Assembly (NCBI GenBank): GCA_017434555.1
Contig: JAFRFB010000007.1
Coordinates: 1 to 64,000, forward strand
Length of the DNA: 64,000 nucleotides
Source: Methanobrevibacter sp.
GTDB lineage: Archaea > Methanobacteriota > Methanobacteria > Methanobacteriales > Methanobacteriaceae
Reading direction: 5' to 3'
Shown here: piece after piece, positions 18,621 to 31,446 of the stretch
How the letters are laid out: each line of letters begins with the position of its first letter
Position numbering within the stretch: the first letter of the stretch is position 1
Program-made: the position numbers and the translations under genes
The notes under the pieces: generated by a model
What the model saw: only the letters and a program-made list of their open reading frames with translations
The model's database searches: none
What the model was told of the DNA's origin: nothing

Positions 18621-20120
18621 TTAAACAATAGTTAAAGCGTTAGGAACTTTCTTTAAAATATTGTTTTTAACTGGTATCATAGTTGATGAGGCAATGGAAA
18701 AATCAGCTTCTTTTGATGCAGACACATCATCTTTAGCAGGAATAATTGTGGCATTTAATTCCTCTTGTAAATTATTAACACTGATGTTTTGTACCCAAGG
18801 GTCTGTATCGGCAATAATTATTTCATCAACATTTTTATCCAATTCATTAGCTATTACCCAGGAGATGAACCTACCGCCATGCAATGCGATAGTATTGCCA
18901 TCAGCGAGATTTACAATTTCATCCAAAGTATGTTTCAGTTCAATATTTTTATACATTCTGGAATTGACAAGTGTAGCCCAATGGGCATCACCGATAGCAT
19001 ATGAACCTATTTTATTTGGATAAATATACTCCGGTCCGGCAATTTTAACAGCCGTAGCTAATGCGAGCAAGTCATGTTTTTGAACAGGCAACCCCCTATT
19101 CGGGAATTCCTCATTAATAATTTGGATAACTCTTGGAAGACCAAATTTACCTCTTCTTGCAGTTCCAGGTTCAAATCCACACATGTATCCATGATGATTT
19201 TTAGGAAATCCTGTAATTACCATGTTCAAACCGCTTCTTAAACCTGCACGAACCTCATGTTCATAAGCTCCATTGGTTGCAACAACTTTTCCTGGAGACA
19301 ATATTCTGGCGGCTGCAATGGTTTTAGCAAAGGCTTCAGTTGTATTTTCACATCTATTGAATGGACCTCCTTCAACTACAACAACATCAGCACCGATTTC
19401 GATAGACTTTTCAAAGCCTGTAATCACTTCATCATATCCGTCACCAACAAACATGATAGATTCGAGGCCTTTATTGTATTCTTTAGCCAAATTTGCAATG
19501 TCAACAGCTTCCTTTAAAGGAGCGGCATGACCATCACCAGTCTGTTCTGAAGTTACATTAACAGCAACAGAAGAAGAGAGTTTAACCCAGTCATTTTTAT
19601 CGTCTTTTTGTTCCAATTCTTTATCAATTAATCTTTCATGAATTCTTCCTCGAGGACATTCTGTAAATGCTGGGCCTTTATTATAGCATTCACCGCCACA
19701 TCCACTAATATTTTTAGGAAGTCTCATTGCACCATTTTCACCAAAATGATCCAAATCCAGCGGAACATCTACAACGTCATGAACCATTTTCATTACTTCA
19801 AGACCTGTCATTCCAAATTTTTCACCGATATCGGAAAATGCATATGCACAAATGTGAATTGGCGCTCCAATCATATCTGCCAATCGGCAATTTCCAATTA
19901 AATCCATTAATTCCAAATCTGATGCGCAAGTTCCCACAACAACTTCCGTTAAATCACAACCTAATGGGAATCTTTTAAATTGCATACCCAATTTCATTGT
20001 TTCTTCAAGAGATAACTCAGAAATTGCATCGACAACAGCAACAACATCTTTATTTTTCATTTTTGATATTTCAATAGCAGCATCATCATCGTTAACAGCA
20101 TTTTTTATTAATTCATACAT
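18621..20120 (-). CDS. hcgG: FeGP-cofactor biosynthesis protein HcgG
   Basis: A 499-aa protein that I recognise as HcgG, which occurs only with [Fe]-hydrogenase. Notable cysteine segments are LGCDLTEVVVGTC, NISGCGGECYNKGPAFTECPRGR and the later FNRCENTTEAF; HGGRFISWVIANEL and ADTDPWVQN are near the C terminus. HcgG is needed for FeGP-cofactor maturation. It is transcribed away from hmd, from a shared 437-bp region with an iron-box-like palindrome, and has a GGAG site before its ATG. Confidence 0.85.
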   Translation of the reverse strand: MYELIKNAVNDDDAAIEISKMKNKDVVAVVDAISELSLEETMKLGMQFKRFPLGCDLTEVVVGTCASDLELMDLIGNCRLADMIGAPIHICAYAFSDIGEKFGMTGLEVMKMVHDVVDVPLDLDHFGENGAMRLPKNISGCGGECYNKGPAFTECPRGRIHERLIDKELEQKDDKNDWVKLSSSVAVNVTSEQTGDGHAAPLKEAVDIANLAKEYNKGLESIMFVGDGYDEVITGFEKSIEIGADVVVVEGGPFNRCENTTEAFAKTIAAARILSPGKVVATNGAYEHEVRAGLRSGLNMVITGFPKNHHGYMCGFEPGTARRGKFGLPRVIQIINEEFPNRGLPVQKHDLLALATAVKIAGPEYIYPNKIGSYAIGDAHWATLVNSRMYKNIELKHTLDEIVNLADGNTIALHGGRFISWVIANELDKNVDEIIIADTDPWVQNISVNNLQEELNATIIPAKDDVSASKEADFSIASSTMIPVKNNILKKVPNALTIV

Positions 20121-20239: not shown

Positions 20240-20319
20240 GTAATACTTTTTTTATAATATAAATAAAAAAGTAATACTGGTAATACTATATAAATAAAGC
20301 ACATGAAAATAAGTAATAC
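20240..20319. promoter_or_regulatory. four GTAATAC sites between hcgG and hmd
   Basis: GTAATAC occurs at 20240-20246, 20271-20277, 20280-20286 and 20313-20319, with start-to-start spacing of 31, 9 and 33 bp. The same 7-mer in the opposite orientation is clustered before cbiM. A TATA box for hmd (TTTATATAG, about 20342-20350) lies 23 bp to the right of the last site. I infer binding sites for one regulator, possibly NikR. Confidence 0.6.
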
Positions 20320-20497: not shown

Positions 20498-20560
20498 ATG
20501 GTTCTTTCTAAATTAAAAGAAAAACTTGAAGGTAAAAAAATAAAGGAGACAAAAAAATGA
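20498..20560 (+). CDS. 20-aa leader peptide overlapping the hmd start
   Basis: An ATG at 20498 follows a strong AGAAGGAGA ribosome site (20483-20491). The frame encodes 20 residues, 9 of them lysine (MVLSKLKEKLEG, then a basic tail), and stops at TGA 20558-20560. The stop overlaps the hmd ATG as ATGA. The hmd ribosome site AAAGGAGA lies inside it. This layout suggests translational coupling. Whether the peptide has its own role is unknown. Confidence 0.55.
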   Translation: MVLSKLKEKLEGKKIKETKK

Positions 20561-21570
20561 AAGTAGCAATTTTAGGTGCAGGATGTTACAGAACTCATGC
20601 TGCAAGTGGAATTACCAACTTCTCAAGAGCTTGTGAAGTTGCTGAAGCAACCGGTAAAGAAAATATTTCAATGACTCACTCCACCATCGAAATGGGTGCA
20701 GAATTATTAGAATTAGCTGGAGTAGACGAAATAGTAGTATCCGATCCAATATTTGACGGAGAATTTACCGTAGTAGATGACTTCGACTATGCAGAAGTAA
20801 TCGCAGCTCACAAAGCAGGTAACCCTGAAGAGGTAATGCCTGCAATCAGAGAAAAAGTAGGTAAATTAGCTGAAACCGTACCAAAACCATCAAAAGGTGC
20901 TATACACTTTACTCACCCAGAAGACTTAGGAATGAAATGTACTACTGACGATTCCGAAGCTGTAGCTGACGCTGACTGGGTAATGACCTGGTTACCAGAA
21001 GGAGGTATGCAACCTGACATCATCAAAAACTTCGCTGATGATATTAAAGACGGTGCAATCGTAACCCACGCATGTACTATCCCAACTCCTGGATTAAACA
21101 AAATCTTCGAAGATTTAGGTAAAGATGTTAATGTAGCTTCATACCACCCAGGTGCTGTACCTGAAATGAAAGGTCAAGTTTACATTGCAGAAGGATTTGC
21201 TGACCAAGCATCCATCGACACATTAATGGACTTAGGTACAAAAGCAAGAGGATCTGCATTCACATTACCTGCTAATATGGTTGGACCTGTATGTGATATG
21301 TGTTCCGCAGTAACTGCAATTACCTATGCAGGTATCTTAGCTTACAGAGACACCGTAACTCAAATCTTAGGTGCACCTGCAGGATTTGCGCAAAGTATGG
21401 CTTACGAAGCATTATCCAATGTAACTGCATTAATGCAAGATGAAGGTATCGACAAAATGGACGATGCTTTAAACCCTGCTGCATTATTAGGTACTGCTGA
21501 CTCAATGAACTTCGGTTCATTAGCTGAAATCGTTCCTACTGTATTAGATTACTTAGGTAAAGATGAATAA
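20557..21570 (+). CDS. hmd: [Fe]-hydrogenase (H2-forming methylene-H4MPT dehydrogenase)
   Basis: Hmd reduces methenyl-H4MPT directly with H2 and uses the iron-guanylylpyridinol cofactor instead of nickel. The 337-aa protein has the N-terminal GAGCYRTHAASGITNF cofactor-binding region. The cofactor-ligating cysteine is in GAIVTHACTIPT (Cys173), and the helical C-terminal half includes GPVCDMCSAVTAITYAGIL. Codon use is biased as in mer. In related methanogens Hmd rises when nickel is scarce, which fits the shared GTAATAC sites with the cbiM locus. Confidence 0.97.
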   Translation: MKVAILGAGCYRTHAASGITNFSRACEVAEATGKENISMTHSTIEMGAELLELAGVDEIVVSDPIFDGEFTVVDDFDYAEVIAAHKAGNPEEVMPAIREKVGKLAETVPKPSKGAIHFTHPEDLGMKCTTDDSEAVADADWVMTWLPEGGMQPDIIKNFADDIKDGAIVTHACTIPTPGLNKIFEDLGKDVNVASYHPGAVPEMKGQVYIAEGFADQASIDTLMDLGTKARGSAFTLPANMVGPVCDMCSAVTAITYAGILAYRDTVTQILGAPAGFAQSMAYEALSNVTALMQDEGIDKMDDALNPAALLGTADSMNFGSLAEIVPTVLDYLGKDE

Positions 21571-27204: not shown

Positions 27205-28485
27205 ATGAGCTTCATTTATTCAAAATTAACAACATTTATAAATTTAATAAATGATGAATTTCATAAATCTTTTTTATTCACAACAATATTTTCAATTTTA
27301 GCTTTTATTGAAAATCAATGGGTTAATAGCTTTTTTAAAGGGCTCTATCCAAGCGAAAATTTTTTAGGCTTTTTGAAAAAGAACAATATTTTAAAAAATC
27401 ATATTTTTAATCCGTTAATTGTTCTGATTGTTTTTGCAGCATTTTTAGCATTATCGTTAAGTCCTATTTCATATAGTCTGACTGTAACACTAATTATTGC
27501 ATTTTTATTCTTTTTTATTGGTGCTGCCGTATTGCCCAGATTTTTTTTAAATGATATGAAAAGTGTTTTAACCTTTAAAAGAAAAGATATTTACTCTATT
27601 GGATTTTGCCTGATTTTAGTAAGTATAGTATTTTTCTTCATAAGCATTGCATCTGTTGGCGGAATTCCTATTTTAAAACCTTCAATAAGATATTTATTAA
27701 AACCTGCTTTTACTATGCCCGTATTTTTGATAATACCTGGAACATGCATTTTGGCAAGTGTATATTTAAAGGATTTTCAGGACAAAATAATAACCCGTTC
27801 ACAGGTCAGATTCAGATTCCTCATACTGCTCATAATTGATGTTGGTCTTTTATTGACTTTAGGTTACAGGACACCACTACTTGCAGCATTACTCATGCTA
27901 ATTATCATAGCATACTACGGAAATATTATTGCAGTGTGGGAAGTTGTTCTTGGAGGACTGATTGGTGTAGGTGCAATAATAGGAATCGGATACTTTAGAT
28001 CAATACATGAGTTGACAGTAAGTAAGGCGATAGATCCTTTCTACACCCTGAAAAGCAGAGCAGACTTTACCCTACATGTACTGAATTTGCTTGATGTTAT
28101 CGGAGGAAATTTTGGTACAACACATGGCCAGATGCTTGCAAGCTCAATACCTGGAAGCGAACTTGGACCTAGAATGATGGTGGGTAAGCTAATTGCATGG
28201 AGAACAGAAGTTACAGTAACACCTACATTAATAGGCCAGATGGTGGCAGATTTTGGAAAAGTTGGTGTTGCAGTTGAGATGTGTCTTTTAGGCTTTATTT
28301 TAGGAATTGGATTTAAAATAATGCAGAAAACAAAAGATTATTTCTATATCGGACTTTACAGTTTGATATTAACATACGCCATTTTAGGTGTTGAAACCGG
28401 AATTCTTGATATTCAGGTTTTATTCTATTTTGCAGTAGCTATTTTTATTTACTTTACAATAATTTTGAAATCTGTTTTTAATTAG
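27205..28485 (+). CDS. Wzy-like oligosaccharide repeat unit polymerase
   Basis: A 426-aa polytopic membrane protein with about 10-12 helices. A long outer loop (about residues 275-335: SRADFTLHVLNLLDVIGGNFGTTHGQ...) is followed by RTEVTVTPTLIGQMVADFGKVGVAVEM. This is the typical layout of O-antigen/oligosaccharide repeat unit polymerases, including archaeal ones of the TIGR04370 type. It may join surface polysaccharide or pseudomurein-related units. A GTGTGAT ribosome site precedes the ATG. Confidence 0.7.
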   Translation: MSFIYSKLTTFINLINDEFHKSFLFTTIFSILAFIENQWVNSFFKGLYPSENFLGFLKKNNILKNHIFNPLIVLIVFAAFLALSLSPISYSLTVTLIIAFLFFFIGAAVLPRFFLNDMKSVLTFKRKDIYSIGFCLILVSIVFFFISIASVGGIPILKPSIRYLLKPAFTMPVFLIIPGTCILASVYLKDFQDKIITRSQVRFRFLILLIIDVGLLLTLGYRTPLLAALLMLIIIAYYGNIIAVWEVVLGGLIGVGAIIGIGYFRSIHELTVSKAIDPFYTLKSRADFTLHVLNLLDVIGGNFGTTHGQMLASSIPGSELGPRMMVGKLIAWRTEVTVTPTLIGQMVADFGKVGVAVEMCLLGFILGIGFKIMQKTKDYFYIGLYSLILTYAILGVETGILDIQVLFYFAVAIFIYFTIILKSVFN

Positions 28486-28725
28486 TATTACTAATTTTAA
28501 ATTTTTTATGTTATTAGTATTACATTTGTATTACTAAACCTTAAAAAAATAGTTAAAAAGTATTACTTTAATAATCTTTATATAATAAAAATAGTATAAT
28601 CTATTAATGTCAAGAAAAATTGAGATGTATTCATTAATCTTTTTGAAATATAGTCCCTTAAACTTGATATTTTCTAAAAAAAGTATTACTTTTAAAAAGA
28701 AAAATTTTGAAAAAAAGTAATACTT
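28483..28725. promoter_or_regulatory. six GTATTAC-type sites at the cbiM promoter
   Basis: GTATTAC lies at 28485-28491, 28517-28523, 28528-28534, 28560-28566 and 28683-28689, and inverted as GTAATAC at 28717-28723. The first four are spaced 32, 11 and 32 bp; the last two form an inverted pair 34 bp apart. A TATA box (TTTATATAAT, about 28577-28586) follows the fourth site closely. GGAGG before the cbiM ATG is at 28736-28740. The same motif occurs upstream of hmd. Confidence 0.65.
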
Positions 28726-28748: not shown

Positions 28749-29393
28749 ATGCATATACCTGACGGATTTATCCCATTTTGGCAATGCGCAATATACTACG
28801 TTATTTTAATCGTAGCAGTGTACTTTGCAAGTAAATGGGCAAGAGAAAACCTTGATGAAAAACGCATTCCTCTTTTAGCAGTTCTTGCAGCAGGTATTTT
28901 TGCTATTATGTCAATGAATATGCCAATCCCATTTGGAACAAGTGGACATATGGTAGGTGGAGCATTGGTAGCGATTATATTCTGTGCACCTGAAGCAGCT
29001 GTTCTTGTATTTACCGTTGTATTAATCATTCAAGCATTAGTATTCGGAGATGGAGGAATTACTGCTCTTGGAGCAAACGTATTGAACATGGCAATAATCG
29101 GAGGATTTACCGGATTATACACATTCAAAGCTTTAAAAGGAAAAATTGGAATTTATGCATCAGCCGGTATTGGTGCATGGTTAGCAACTGTAGTTGCAGC
29201 ACTAGCTTGTGCAATTGAAATGGCAATTGCTGGAACATTCCCATTAACAGTAGGAATTGCTTCAATGGTAACATACCATATCTTTATTGGAATAATCGAA
29301 GCAGTATTAACTGTTATTGTTTTAATGGCTTTAGATAAATTTAGACCAGATCTTTTGATTTGGAATAAGAATAAAATAGAAGGAGGAGAATAA
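28749..29393 (+). CDS. cbiM: CbiM/NikM-type substrate-binding membrane protein
   Basis: The S component of an energy-coupling Ni/Co transporter. The 214-aa protein starts [11 protein letters not shown], where the N-terminal Met-His loop binds the metal. About six or seven helices follow, with the conserved [21 protein letters not shown] and [22 protein letters not shown] segments. The sequence does not prove whether nickel or cobalt is carried. Motif sharing with hmd argues for nickel. First gene of a four-gene operon. Confidence 0.9.
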
Positions 29394-29394
29394 A

Positions 29395-29682
29395 ATGGAT
29401 AAACGTGACAAAACATTAATAATCATTGCGATTGTGATTTGCGTTGTAATCAGTTGTCTTTCTCCTTTTATTGCATCAGGAGACCCTGACGGATTAGAAA
29501 AATCTGCAGAAGATGCGGGCGTTAGTGAAGATAAAGCAATAGTAGTTATCCAACCGCCTTTCCCTGACTACACCTTTGAACCTCTTGAATCCCTTGGTGA
29601 AGTAAGTGTTCTCATTATAGGTGCTATACTGACACTTCTATGTGGATGGGGAATTGCAGAAATTGTAAAAAGAAGAAGTTAA
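29395..29682 (+). CDS. CbiN-like PDGLE-domain membrane protein
   Basis: A 95-aa protein with two membrane helices and the GDPDGLEKSAEDAG motif that defines PDGLE-type accessory subunits of NikM/CbiM transporters. It begins 1 bp after the cbiM stop, with GGAGGAG as ribosome site. It probably supports metal loading of the CbiM subunit. Confidence 0.85.
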   Translation: MDKRDKTLIIIAIVICVVISCLSPFIASGDPDGLEKSAEDAGVSEDKAIVVIQPPFPDYTFEPLESLGEVSVLIIGAILTLLCGWGIAEIVKRRS

Positions 29683-29760: not shown

Positions 29761-30591
29761 ATGGCTGATATTACAAAAGCTCTTAATTTAGATGAATTGG
29801 CTTCAAAAGATAGTCCCATACATAATTTAGATGGAAGAATAAAACTAATATCTGCAATTTTAATAATTGTTATTGCTGCTTTTTCAAATAACATTTTTAT
29901 ACCGATTGTTTTGGAAATCTTTTTGCTGATTGAAATTAAAATAGCTAAACTATCATATATTGACTCATTTAAAAGACTAGCATTACTACTTCCATTTGGA
30001 GGAGCAATAATTATTTTTCAACCTTTCATACATCCGGGAAATATTTTATGGTCGTACTCATGGATTACAATAACAGATACTGGATTAAACTGGGCGATAT
30101 TATTAGTTACCAGAATGATTGTTTCATTAACTTCAATTGTAATTTTATCCTCTACAAGTCCGATGCAGCAGATTGTTGCTTCATTTAGAAGATTGAAAAT
30201 GCCGAAAGATTTAGCAATGATTTTAAGTATTATGGTTAGATTCTTATTTGTATTTATTGATGAACTGGCAGCTATTAGAAAATCCCAAAAATCAAGAAAC
30301 TTCCATATACACTCCAAACTAACCCCATATAAATGGAGAGTAAGACAAGTTGGTTATTCTATAGCCATGATGTTTGTTAAATCATATGAACAAGGTGAAA
30401 GAGTTTATAAAAGTATGATTAGCCGGGGATTTTCAGACAAGTCAGATCTGTTTAATGAAAAGACATCCCTTGAAAAGTCTGACTACATATACATTTTTAC
30501 AATAATACTGTTGATTATCATTGCAGAGATTATTTTAATTAAATATTCAGGTCATTTAGGATACTTTGGAGAGAACTTATCTATAAATTAA
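29761..30591 (+). CDS. cbiQ: CbiQ/EcfT-type transmembrane subunit
   Basis: The 276-aa T component has about five helices. Two short Ala-Arg-type coupling motifs lie in the cytoplasmic part, seen here as AIRKSQKSRNFH and GERVYKSMISRGF. These couple the S component to the ATPase. It sits in the same orientation between the PDGLE gene and the ATPase gene. Confidence 0.88.
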   Translation: MADITKALNLDELASKDSPIHNLDGRIKLISAILIIVIAAFSNNIFIPIVLEIFLLIEIKIAKLSYIDSFKRLALLLPFGGAIIIFQPFIHPGNILWSYSWITITDTGLNWAILLVTRMIVSLTSIVILSSTSPMQQIVASFRRLKMPKDLAMILSIMVRFLFVFIDELAAIRKSQKSRNFHIHSKLTPYKWRVRQVGYSIAMMFVKSYEQGERVYKSMISRGFSDKSDLFNEKTSLEKSDYIYIFTIILLIIIAEIILIKYSGHLGYFGENLSIN

Positions 30592-30606: not shown

Positions 30607-31446
30607 ATGAATGAAGTACATTTATCAATAAAAAACTTAAGCTACACATACCCTGACGGAACTCGTGCACTGAAAAATATTAATATGGAAATTTTAAAAG
30701 GCCAAAAGGTTGCAATAATGGGGCCGAATGGTGCTGGAAAATCAACATTGTTTTCTCATTTCAACGGATTAACGGAACCAACCTCAGGACATCTTGAAAT
30801 AGATGGAAAAAAGATGGAATATGATAAAAATACCCTTTTAGAAGTTAGACAAAAAGTTGGAATAGTATTTCAAGACCCGAATGACCAGTTATTTGCACCA
30901 ACAGTGAAAGAAGATGTTGCATTTGGTCCAATGAATTTAGGTTTAAGTTACGAAGAAGTGGAAAAACGTATGAACGAAGCGTTAACCCTAGTCGGAATGG
31001 AAAAATTTAAAGATAAGACACCGCATCATTTAAGTGGAGGCCAGCAAAAAAGAGTGGCTATTGCCGGAATAATAGCTATGAAACCTGAAATAATGATACT
31101 TGATGAACCGACAGCAGGTCTGGATCCGCAGGGAGTTGAAAAAGTATTGGATATTTTAAATAATTTAAATAAAGAAGGAATGAGCATTGTAATATCCTCT
31201 CACGATATAGAAATGGTAAATGGATTTGCCGAAAAAATATTTGTTTTAAATGAAGGAGAAATCCTTGCAAGCGGAGATAAAGATGAAATATTTTCCGATA
31301 AAGAATTATTAAAAAAAGCACATCTAAAAGCACCGATAACAACTGAAATTTTATATCAACTAAAAGAAAAAGGCTTTGACGTTGATACAACAAAAATAAA
31401 TGTAAATGAAGTTGTTGATGAAATAATTAAAATGAAAAAAAGTTAA
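30607..31446 (+). CDS. cbiO: CbiO-type ABC transporter ATPase
   Basis: A 279-aa ABC ATPase with Walker A (GPNGAGKSTLF), the Q loop in VFQDPNDQLFAPTV, the signature LSGGQQKR, Walker B (EIMILDEPTAGLDP) and the switch histidine in SSHDIEMV. The family and the operon position identify it as the energy unit of the CbiMQO transporter. The ribosome site is GAGGCGG. Confidence 0.92.
   Translation: MNEVHLSIKNLSYTYPDGTRALKNINMEILKGQKVAIMGPNGAGKSTLFSHFNGLTEPTSGHLEIDGKKMEYDKNTLLEVRQKVGIVFQDPNDQLFAPTVKEDVAFGPMNLGLSYEEVEKRMNEALTLVGMEKFKDKTPHHLSGGQQKRVAIAGIIAMKPEIMILDEPTAGLDPQGVEKVLDILNNLNKEGMSIVISSHDIEMVNGFAEKIFVLNEGEILASGDKDEIFSDKELLKKAHLKAPITTEILYQLKEKGFDVDTTKINVNEVVDEIIKMKKS

Follow-up and report, generated by a model that had tools for sequence, protein, structure and literature searches.

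Under nickel limitation, Methanothermobacter marburgensis raises Hmd, HcgG, CobN1, NikR1, and transporters, and Frh disappears (PMC12350162); older work in the same organism likewise reported that low nickel raises hmd and lowers frh (PMC3087415). Both reports agree with the premise of the original prediction for the present locus, that hydrogenotrophic methanogens raise Hmd when nickel is short. In methanogens short of nickel, Hmd is known to take the place of the F420-reducing [NiFe]-hydrogenase (Frh). No operator, regulator, or post-transcriptional step for the exchange of Hmd and Frh was found in the open literature searched, nor any report of the operator or the RNA described here, and the motif GTAATAC combined with methanogens returned unrelated papers only, apparently owing to primers that contain these letters.

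Among bacterial nickel regulators, the delta-proteobacterial NikR operator reads GTGTTAC-[N13/14]-GTAACAC, and a predicted operator, GTaTTAC-N13-GTAACAC, precedes hydAB of D. desulfuricans, encoding a nickel-independent Fe-only hydrogenase (PMC545781). The NikR of H. pylori has half-site cores TRTTA/TAWTA with a centre distance of 20 bp and represses the non-coding RNAs Nrr1, Nrr2, and IsoB/NikS in nickel-replete cells (PMC5385501). As far as the accessible part of its description goes, sRNA162 of Methanosarcina mazei is a methanogen small RNA acting on a trans-encoded mRNA (PMC3510493).

The regulon described below predicts the same low-nickel behavior that M. marburgensis shows, with Frh going down while Hmd, HcgG, CobN1, and transporters go up, yet our searches found neither this operator nor this RNA in Methanothermobacter-type genera, whose hmd nevertheless responds to nickel. 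With the delta-proteobacterial regulon, the archaeal one shares 7-bp half-sites that differ by one base pair from GTGTTAC/GTAACAC, nikMNQO-type transporter targets, and a nickel-free hydrogenase with hmd-like logic; it differs in having half-sites 31–33 bp apart, often as double pairs, at archaeal TATA promoters, and in targets that include hmd/hcgG, nicotianamine synthase, CobN, and a small RNA. The H. pylori cores match TATTA/TAATA here, and a nickel regulator over small RNAs is a further likeness, but the archaeal RNA was found via its operator, represents a family not yet described, and runs antisense to the mRNA of a [NiFe]-hydrogenase. Judged by what was available of its source, sRNA162 resembles our element in kind but belongs to another order and another regulator, and no sequence relation is expected.

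Operator pairs at hmd, hcgG, and cbiM

We analyzed a window of 64,000 nucleotides, meaning the whole stretch of Methanobrevibacter DNA under study, whose relevant features are collected in Table 1. Four GTAATAC copies spaced 31, 9, and 33 bp had been predicted between hcgG and hmd, and all four were found. At cbiM, the positions of the six predicted sites were likewise correct, but the last of them (28717) is not an inverted copy, as had been supposed, since only its central A/T differs. The site is an odd palindrome, AGTA-W-TACT, of which GTAATAC and GTATTAC are the two readings, so its orientation carries little meaning. The prediction that the spacings fit whole helical turns held in that about 32 bp corresponds to three turns, with the correction that the AGTAWTACT palindromes repeat as pairs, the two members of each lying about 32 bp from one another. 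The hmd array thus consists of two such pairs side by side, offset by 9 bp.

Table 1. Coordinates of the operator pairs, genes, and leader hairpin within the window.
Feature	Position	Strand	Remarks
hcgG, FeGP-cofactor biosynthesis protein	18621..20120	minus	Pfam Fibrillarin_2, 806 bits
Operator pair 1, GTAATAC at 20240 and 20271, 31 bp apart	20240..20277	.	Flanks minus-strand TATA-like box for hcgG
Operator pair 2, GTAATAC at 20280 and 20313, 33 bp apart	20280..20319	.	Flanks plus-strand TATA box for hmd
hmd leader hairpin, arms TTACTACATG / CATTGTAGTAA	20375..20451	plus	Conserved in related leaders with pair-preserving changes
hmd, [Fe]-hydrogenase, nickel-free	20557..21570	plus	Pfam HMD_N and HMD domains
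Operator pair upstream of cbiM, GTATTAC at 28485 and 28517, 32 bp	28485..28523	.
Operator pair, GTATTAC at 28528 and 28560, 32 bp	28528..28566	.	Immediately 5' of TATA box 28576-28584
Third pair, GTATTAC 28683 / GTAATAC 28717, 34 bp	28683..28723	.	Within presumed 5' leader of cbiM
cbiM (nikM-like), substrate-specific component, nickel/cobalt ECF transporter	28749..29393	plus	Pfam
cbiN, PDGLE domain	29395..29682	plus	Pfam
cbiQ, ECF transporter T component	29761..30591	plus	Pfam
cbiO, ECF transporter ATPase	30607..31446	plus	Pfam

The arrays had also been placed near TATA boxes, which proved correct: the pairs flank them at hmd/hcgG, and at cbiM a pair lies directly upstream. Pair 1 encloses the minus-strand TATA-like box TTTATATT, running from 20263 downwards and facing hcgG. 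On the plus strand, pair 2 encloses the TATA box TATATAAA (20287), which faces hmd. We propose, in the absence of expression data, that hcgG and hmd are jointly regulated from this common intergenic region.

A second layer of hmd control may reside in its leader. The hairpin listed in Table 1 recurs in L055, L060, L062, L069, L080, L083, and L112 with different arms (e.g., TTACTACATGGCA, TTACTGCATGGA, and TTACTACATGGTA), each having its own complement about 55–70 nt downstream, such that the changes keep the pairing. Separately, an open frame of 20 codons (MVLSKLKEKLEGKKIKETKK) at 20498-20560 ends on the hmd start codon (ATGA); this stretch is kept in related genomes, and in L055 it is in frame with hmd.

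Operator pairs in the genome, the genus, and the class

The genome is AT-rich and GTAATAC is a common word in it, so that mere clustering had to be weighed. Within the window, GTAATAC/GTATTAC occurs 20 times against 7.7 expected (the maximum in 100 shuffles was 13), and exact pairs 31–33 bp apart occur 4 times against none in 60 windows simulated with a first-order Markov model. Pairs were present in all 67 genomes of the genus, about 8 in each compared with about 0.7 for a reversed control pattern, a roughly 12-fold difference, and in several genera it is again the same orthologs that lie behind the pairs. The pair counts refute chance clustering, to which we leave practically no probability. 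In the loci fetched, which were themselves chosen for spacings of 30–34, the spacings numbered 2 (30 bp), 8 (31 bp), 47 (32 bp), 26 (33 bp), and 1 (34 bp), with a mode of 32 and the consensus AAGTAWTACTT.

Pattern searches of the 3.15-Mb genome from which the window comes returned 21 places with any gap of 1 to 31 bases, 14 of them with a gap of 23–27. All 14 exact pairs of the latter kind lie at nickel-shortage genes, at DUF3344 surface proteins (beside or resembling those of the CobN locus), or at an RNA element. The targets comprise hmd with hcgG, cbiMNQO, nikA (SBP_bac_5; best curated match nickel_nikA, under its cut-off), nikDE-type ATPases, a heavy-metal P-type ATPase, and a CobN/Mg-chelatase-like protein with DUF2162 and MotA/ExbB behind it. 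The same downstream genes recur in relatives, joined there by nicotianamine synthase (PF03059), a Peripla_BP_2 protein, and a CbiQ/FmdE locus. Own-genome pairs with a spacing of 14–21 bp (C21, C34, and C134) were not taken as part of the regulon because the spacing is off; the only one examined in its context (C134:6814; L014/L020) falls within coding sequence.

At least 2 exact sites were identified upstream of hmd in 28 of the 33 Methanobrevibacter hmd loci having upstream sequence, and an array stands 5' of nikM/cbiM in all 9 cbiM loci fetched. The prediction would have failed had the array been absent in close relatives or scattered over many loci unrelated to nickel, and neither outcome was encountered. 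Pairs are also frequent in the related genera g3, g6, g8, g9, and g12, the assignment of genera and families in this comparison resting on genome size and kinship. The class-wide pattern search revealed no enriched exact pairs in g13–g19 or in Methanothermobacter-type families, exact pairs being absent at hmd too in Methanothermobacter-type genera, and the idea of an operator general to Methanobacteria was dropped on that ground.

Beyond these counts, degenerate pairs (AGTATTAAA and AGTAATACT, 33 bp apart) were observed at hmd of genus g16 (L091 and L295) and may be remnants. Three hmd loci of Methanothermobacter-type and other genera (L290, L293, and L294) carry no operator pairs and have an inverted repeat such as TGTACTACT..AGTAGTATTACAG just 5' of hmd, which may be its own control element there. 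In L018 (G000:C81), L184, and L186, DUF3344 surface proteins are followed by a CobN-like protein, large and secreted, together with DUF2162 and MotA/ExbB genes, each with its own operator; this locus looks like an energized nickel scavenging system of the cell surface.

The pairs at the P-type ATPase likewise enclose a TATA-like sequence, and at cbiM and the RNA gene the pair lies directly 5' of the TATA box. Such placement suggests, by inference, that a bound protein would block TBP/TFB. The operators might alternatively act as activator sites at some promoters, giving a regulon of both repressed and activated genes: the pair stands 5' of the TATA box and not around it at cbiM, at the small RNA, and at frhA of genome G006, and the NikR of H. 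pylori is described, in the portion of the source available, as activating or repressing (PMC9860126). On the other hand, the fact that pairs enclose the TATA boxes of hmd and of the P-type ATPase favors occlusion, and the genes form a nickel-shortage set, which should be switched off in the presence of nickel. We consider activation unlikely and retain repression as the preferred sign.

NikR as the candidate regulator

A single nickel regulator acting on both hmd and cbiM had been predicted; operators shared among nickel genes genome-wide support the common control, and the identity of NikR as the binder remains unproven. The genome encodes one NikR, its only NikR_C protein. A single copy with the ribbon-helix-helix (RHH) and NikR_C domains was identified in 63 of the 67 genus genomes and in all 37 of good quality (at least 90% complete and little contaminated). 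The nickel ligands H..H.H..C are conserved relative to solved NikR structures (P. horikoshii and H. pylori). Among the NikR loci listed across the class, there is almost no variation in MRISMSLP, the strand that contacts DNA.

The half-site resembles known NikR half-sites (GTGTTAC/GTAACAC, TRTTA/TAWTA, and GTATGA), in line with the likeness to a bacterial half-site that had been pointed out beforehand and in agreement with the motifs in PMC545781 and PMC5385501. The target genes belong to the nickel-uptake and nickel-enzyme class that a NikR regulon requires. The two-turn spacing of bacterial NikR half-sites (20–22 bp centre to centre) is not met, the distance here being about 31–33 bp, one turn more; that the spacing would differ had been anticipated. 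A nikR homologue with the same motif was among the checks proposed in the original prediction, and here only the homologue was found: no operator pair lies near nikR in the loci inspected, and autoregulation of nikR through this operator was dropped.

The same nickel regulon could instead be read by some other metal regulator that recognizes AGTAWTACT pairs three turns apart. The spacing is unlike that of the NikR operators in the literature covered, nikR itself has no operator, and some genera share the same NikR strand without enriched exact pairs; with MRISMSLP nearly invariant class-wide, the absence of pairs in Methanothermobacter-type genera stays unexplained. Against another binder stand the fit of the half-site to two independent bacterial NikR motifs, one of them before a nickel-free hydrogenase, the status of NikR as sole NikR_C protein with its nickel ligands present, and the proximity of the regulated RNA gene to nikR in two genomes. 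We regard a different binder as quite improbable and NikR, for which no binding data exist, as very likely the protein that binds the operators.

In one locus (L021:6378-8156), a methyltransferase-like gene comes after nikR, and next to it a gene whose sequence resembles a hydrogenase maturation protease, a neighborhood that links this NikR to [NiFe]-hydrogenase.

A conserved RNA element, frhA, and the predicted nickel circuit

One own-genome pair (C15:32379) has no protein gene downstream and precedes a non-coding element; there and at its counterparts in four relatives, a TATA box comes after the pair, and behind it a conserved element that lacks an open frame. We read this element as a conserved putative RNA of about 95 nt, with an outer helix GUUUGAAGU/ACUUCAAAC, an open loop containing CUAUCUUUCAAAUUCCCUCUU, and usually a U-rich 3' side. 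No Rfam family matched it in a search of the loci, which gave only one sub-threshold chance hit elsewhere in them. A covariance model (R1) built from five copies matched 49 of the 67 genus genomes, with one weak match outside the genus in a class-wide search under strict filters; absence calls are weak for some genomes because these are partly metagenome bins and incomplete. The promoter order of operator, TATA box, about 25 bp, and RNA is strictly conserved. Both half-sites lie at −82 to −85 and −49 to −52 in 31 of 50 copies, about 10 further copies keep one exact half-site at those positions, and about 7 carry an additional 5' module, their operator standing near −100. The closing helix is 99.8% paired among genus copies; covariation within the genus is no proof of the helix, since the variation is one-sided only, and the fold z-score is weak in some species. 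The RNA gene of G002 and G007 sits some 0.7 kb 5' of nikR, separated from it by a single small gene.

Several variants of the element were also observed. The extra 5' module (from about GUGCAAU) is located between TATA box and core in L234, L246, L248, L249, L251, L253, and L254, and G050 carries two RNA copies. A second conserved stretch of the RNA, UAGCUUAGCA, has no known partner. In G073 (genus g3; L195:6678), an operator pair and TATA box precede an RNA-like element with a different loop that the model does not match, its outer helix (GUUUGAGAUUA/UAAUCUCAAAC) containing two compensated pairs; a search of other genera for relatives of the RNA yielded no candidate besides this look-alike.

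The loop of the RNA is the reverse complement of the translation start of frhA, encoding the F420-reducing [NiFe]-hydrogenase (TIGR03295, 550 bits), and covers its Shine-Dalgarno sequence and UUG start. The frhA mRNA GAGGUGACAUAUUUGAAAGAUAG is matched by CUAUCUUUCAAAU followed by CCCUC in the RNA; in the own genome, the pairing includes one mismatch (TTTGACAGATAG). The 13-mer ATTTGAAAGATAG occurs 83 times in 67 whole genomes compared with 6 for the reversed control. In the 12 genomes checked by reading both loci, it lies in exactly two places, the RNA gene and frhA; additional matches read in other genomes were scattered coding positions. Among 190–426 candidate starts, frhA ranked first in G000, G001, G003, and G004 and second in G008, the gene sets being partial and enriched for hydrogenase and nickel loci. 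Owing to this enrichment for hydrogenases, other [NiFe]-hydrogenase genes (EhaN/EhaO and EhbN-like, names from sequence annotation), which scored fairly well, are not claimed as targets. The pairing exceeded all or nearly all of 200 loop shuffles in nearly all genomes (32 of 34; exceptions G035 and G049), a comparison that left out G015, G034, and G042. Matched RNA-frhA pairs had only a modest advantage over swapped ones, with 58 of 5000 permutations as good. Both partners have changed in G002 and G007 (mRNA GACAG, RNA CUGUC), and changes adjoining the core give a longer, 17-bp match in G038.

In G009, G024, G029, and G061, the RNA was not found and frhA lacks the target sequence; in G013, G031, and G066, the target or a close variant is present and no RNA was detected. 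G006, also without a detected RNA, has an operator pair directly before frhA (G006:C81:90459-90496; L329:1421-1458), which suggests direct control of frhA there, of undetermined sign. A single conserved GTATTAC was observed before frhA in several species.

The element behind the orphan operators might not be a regulatory RNA against frhA at all, its match being a coincidence or an old duplication: there is no transcript evidence, some species have the weak fold scores noted above, and sequence conservation alone could preserve the match. What makes us think this very unlikely is that the 13-nt match is unique genome-wide in the 12 genomes and lies exactly over the Shine-Dalgarno sequence and start codon of a nickel enzyme, that the promoter arrangement is strictly conserved, and that in some species both partners have changed together. 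We prefer to read the element as a small RNA that silences frhA.

On this reading, the arrays would be operators of a nickel-responsive repressor, most likely the archaeon's single NikR. Nickel-bound NikR would repress hmd/hcgG, cbiMNQO, nikA, nikDE, CobN with ExbB, the metal P-type ATPase, and the small RNA, and in relatives also nicotianamine synthase. When nickel is scarce, these genes would be released, the products for nickel import as well as Hmd and its cofactor genes would be made, and the small RNA would pair with the Shine-Dalgarno sequence and UUG start of the frhA mRNA, so that FrhA synthesis would stop. Each half of this scheme has a bacterial counterpart, namely the predicted NikR control of a nickel-free hydrogenase (PMC545781) and the non-coding RNAs that NikR represses in H. 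pylori (PMC5385501). Sequence establishes the operators and where they lie across the genome, as well as the conservation of the RNA element and the match of its loop to frhA. Binding by NikR, the direction of control, transcription of the RNA, and a block of frhA translation are all inferred, there being no expression, binding, or translation data. We put the probability of the whole circuit, with NikR-type operators, a nickel regulon, and an RNA silencing frhA, at roughly three in four. That one regulator, through a new three-turn operator, controls both Hmd and an antisense RNA on frhA and thereby swaps [NiFe]- for [Fe]-hydrogenase at low nickel is, in our estimation, probable.

Bacterial small RNAs of the RyhB type are made at metal scarcity and stop the synthesis of enzymes that use that metal. 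The same metal-sparing logic is predicted for the present RNA, which differs in being archaeal, in responding to nickel and not iron, in having one clear target so far, and in having no known Hfq requirement. For the exchange of Hmd and Frh, the analysis offers candidates for the operator and the sensor, together with a whole regulon and an antisense RNA to frhA. If the circuit is true, the archaea that produce most methane in the rumen and gut would possess a small RNA of the metal-sparing kind.
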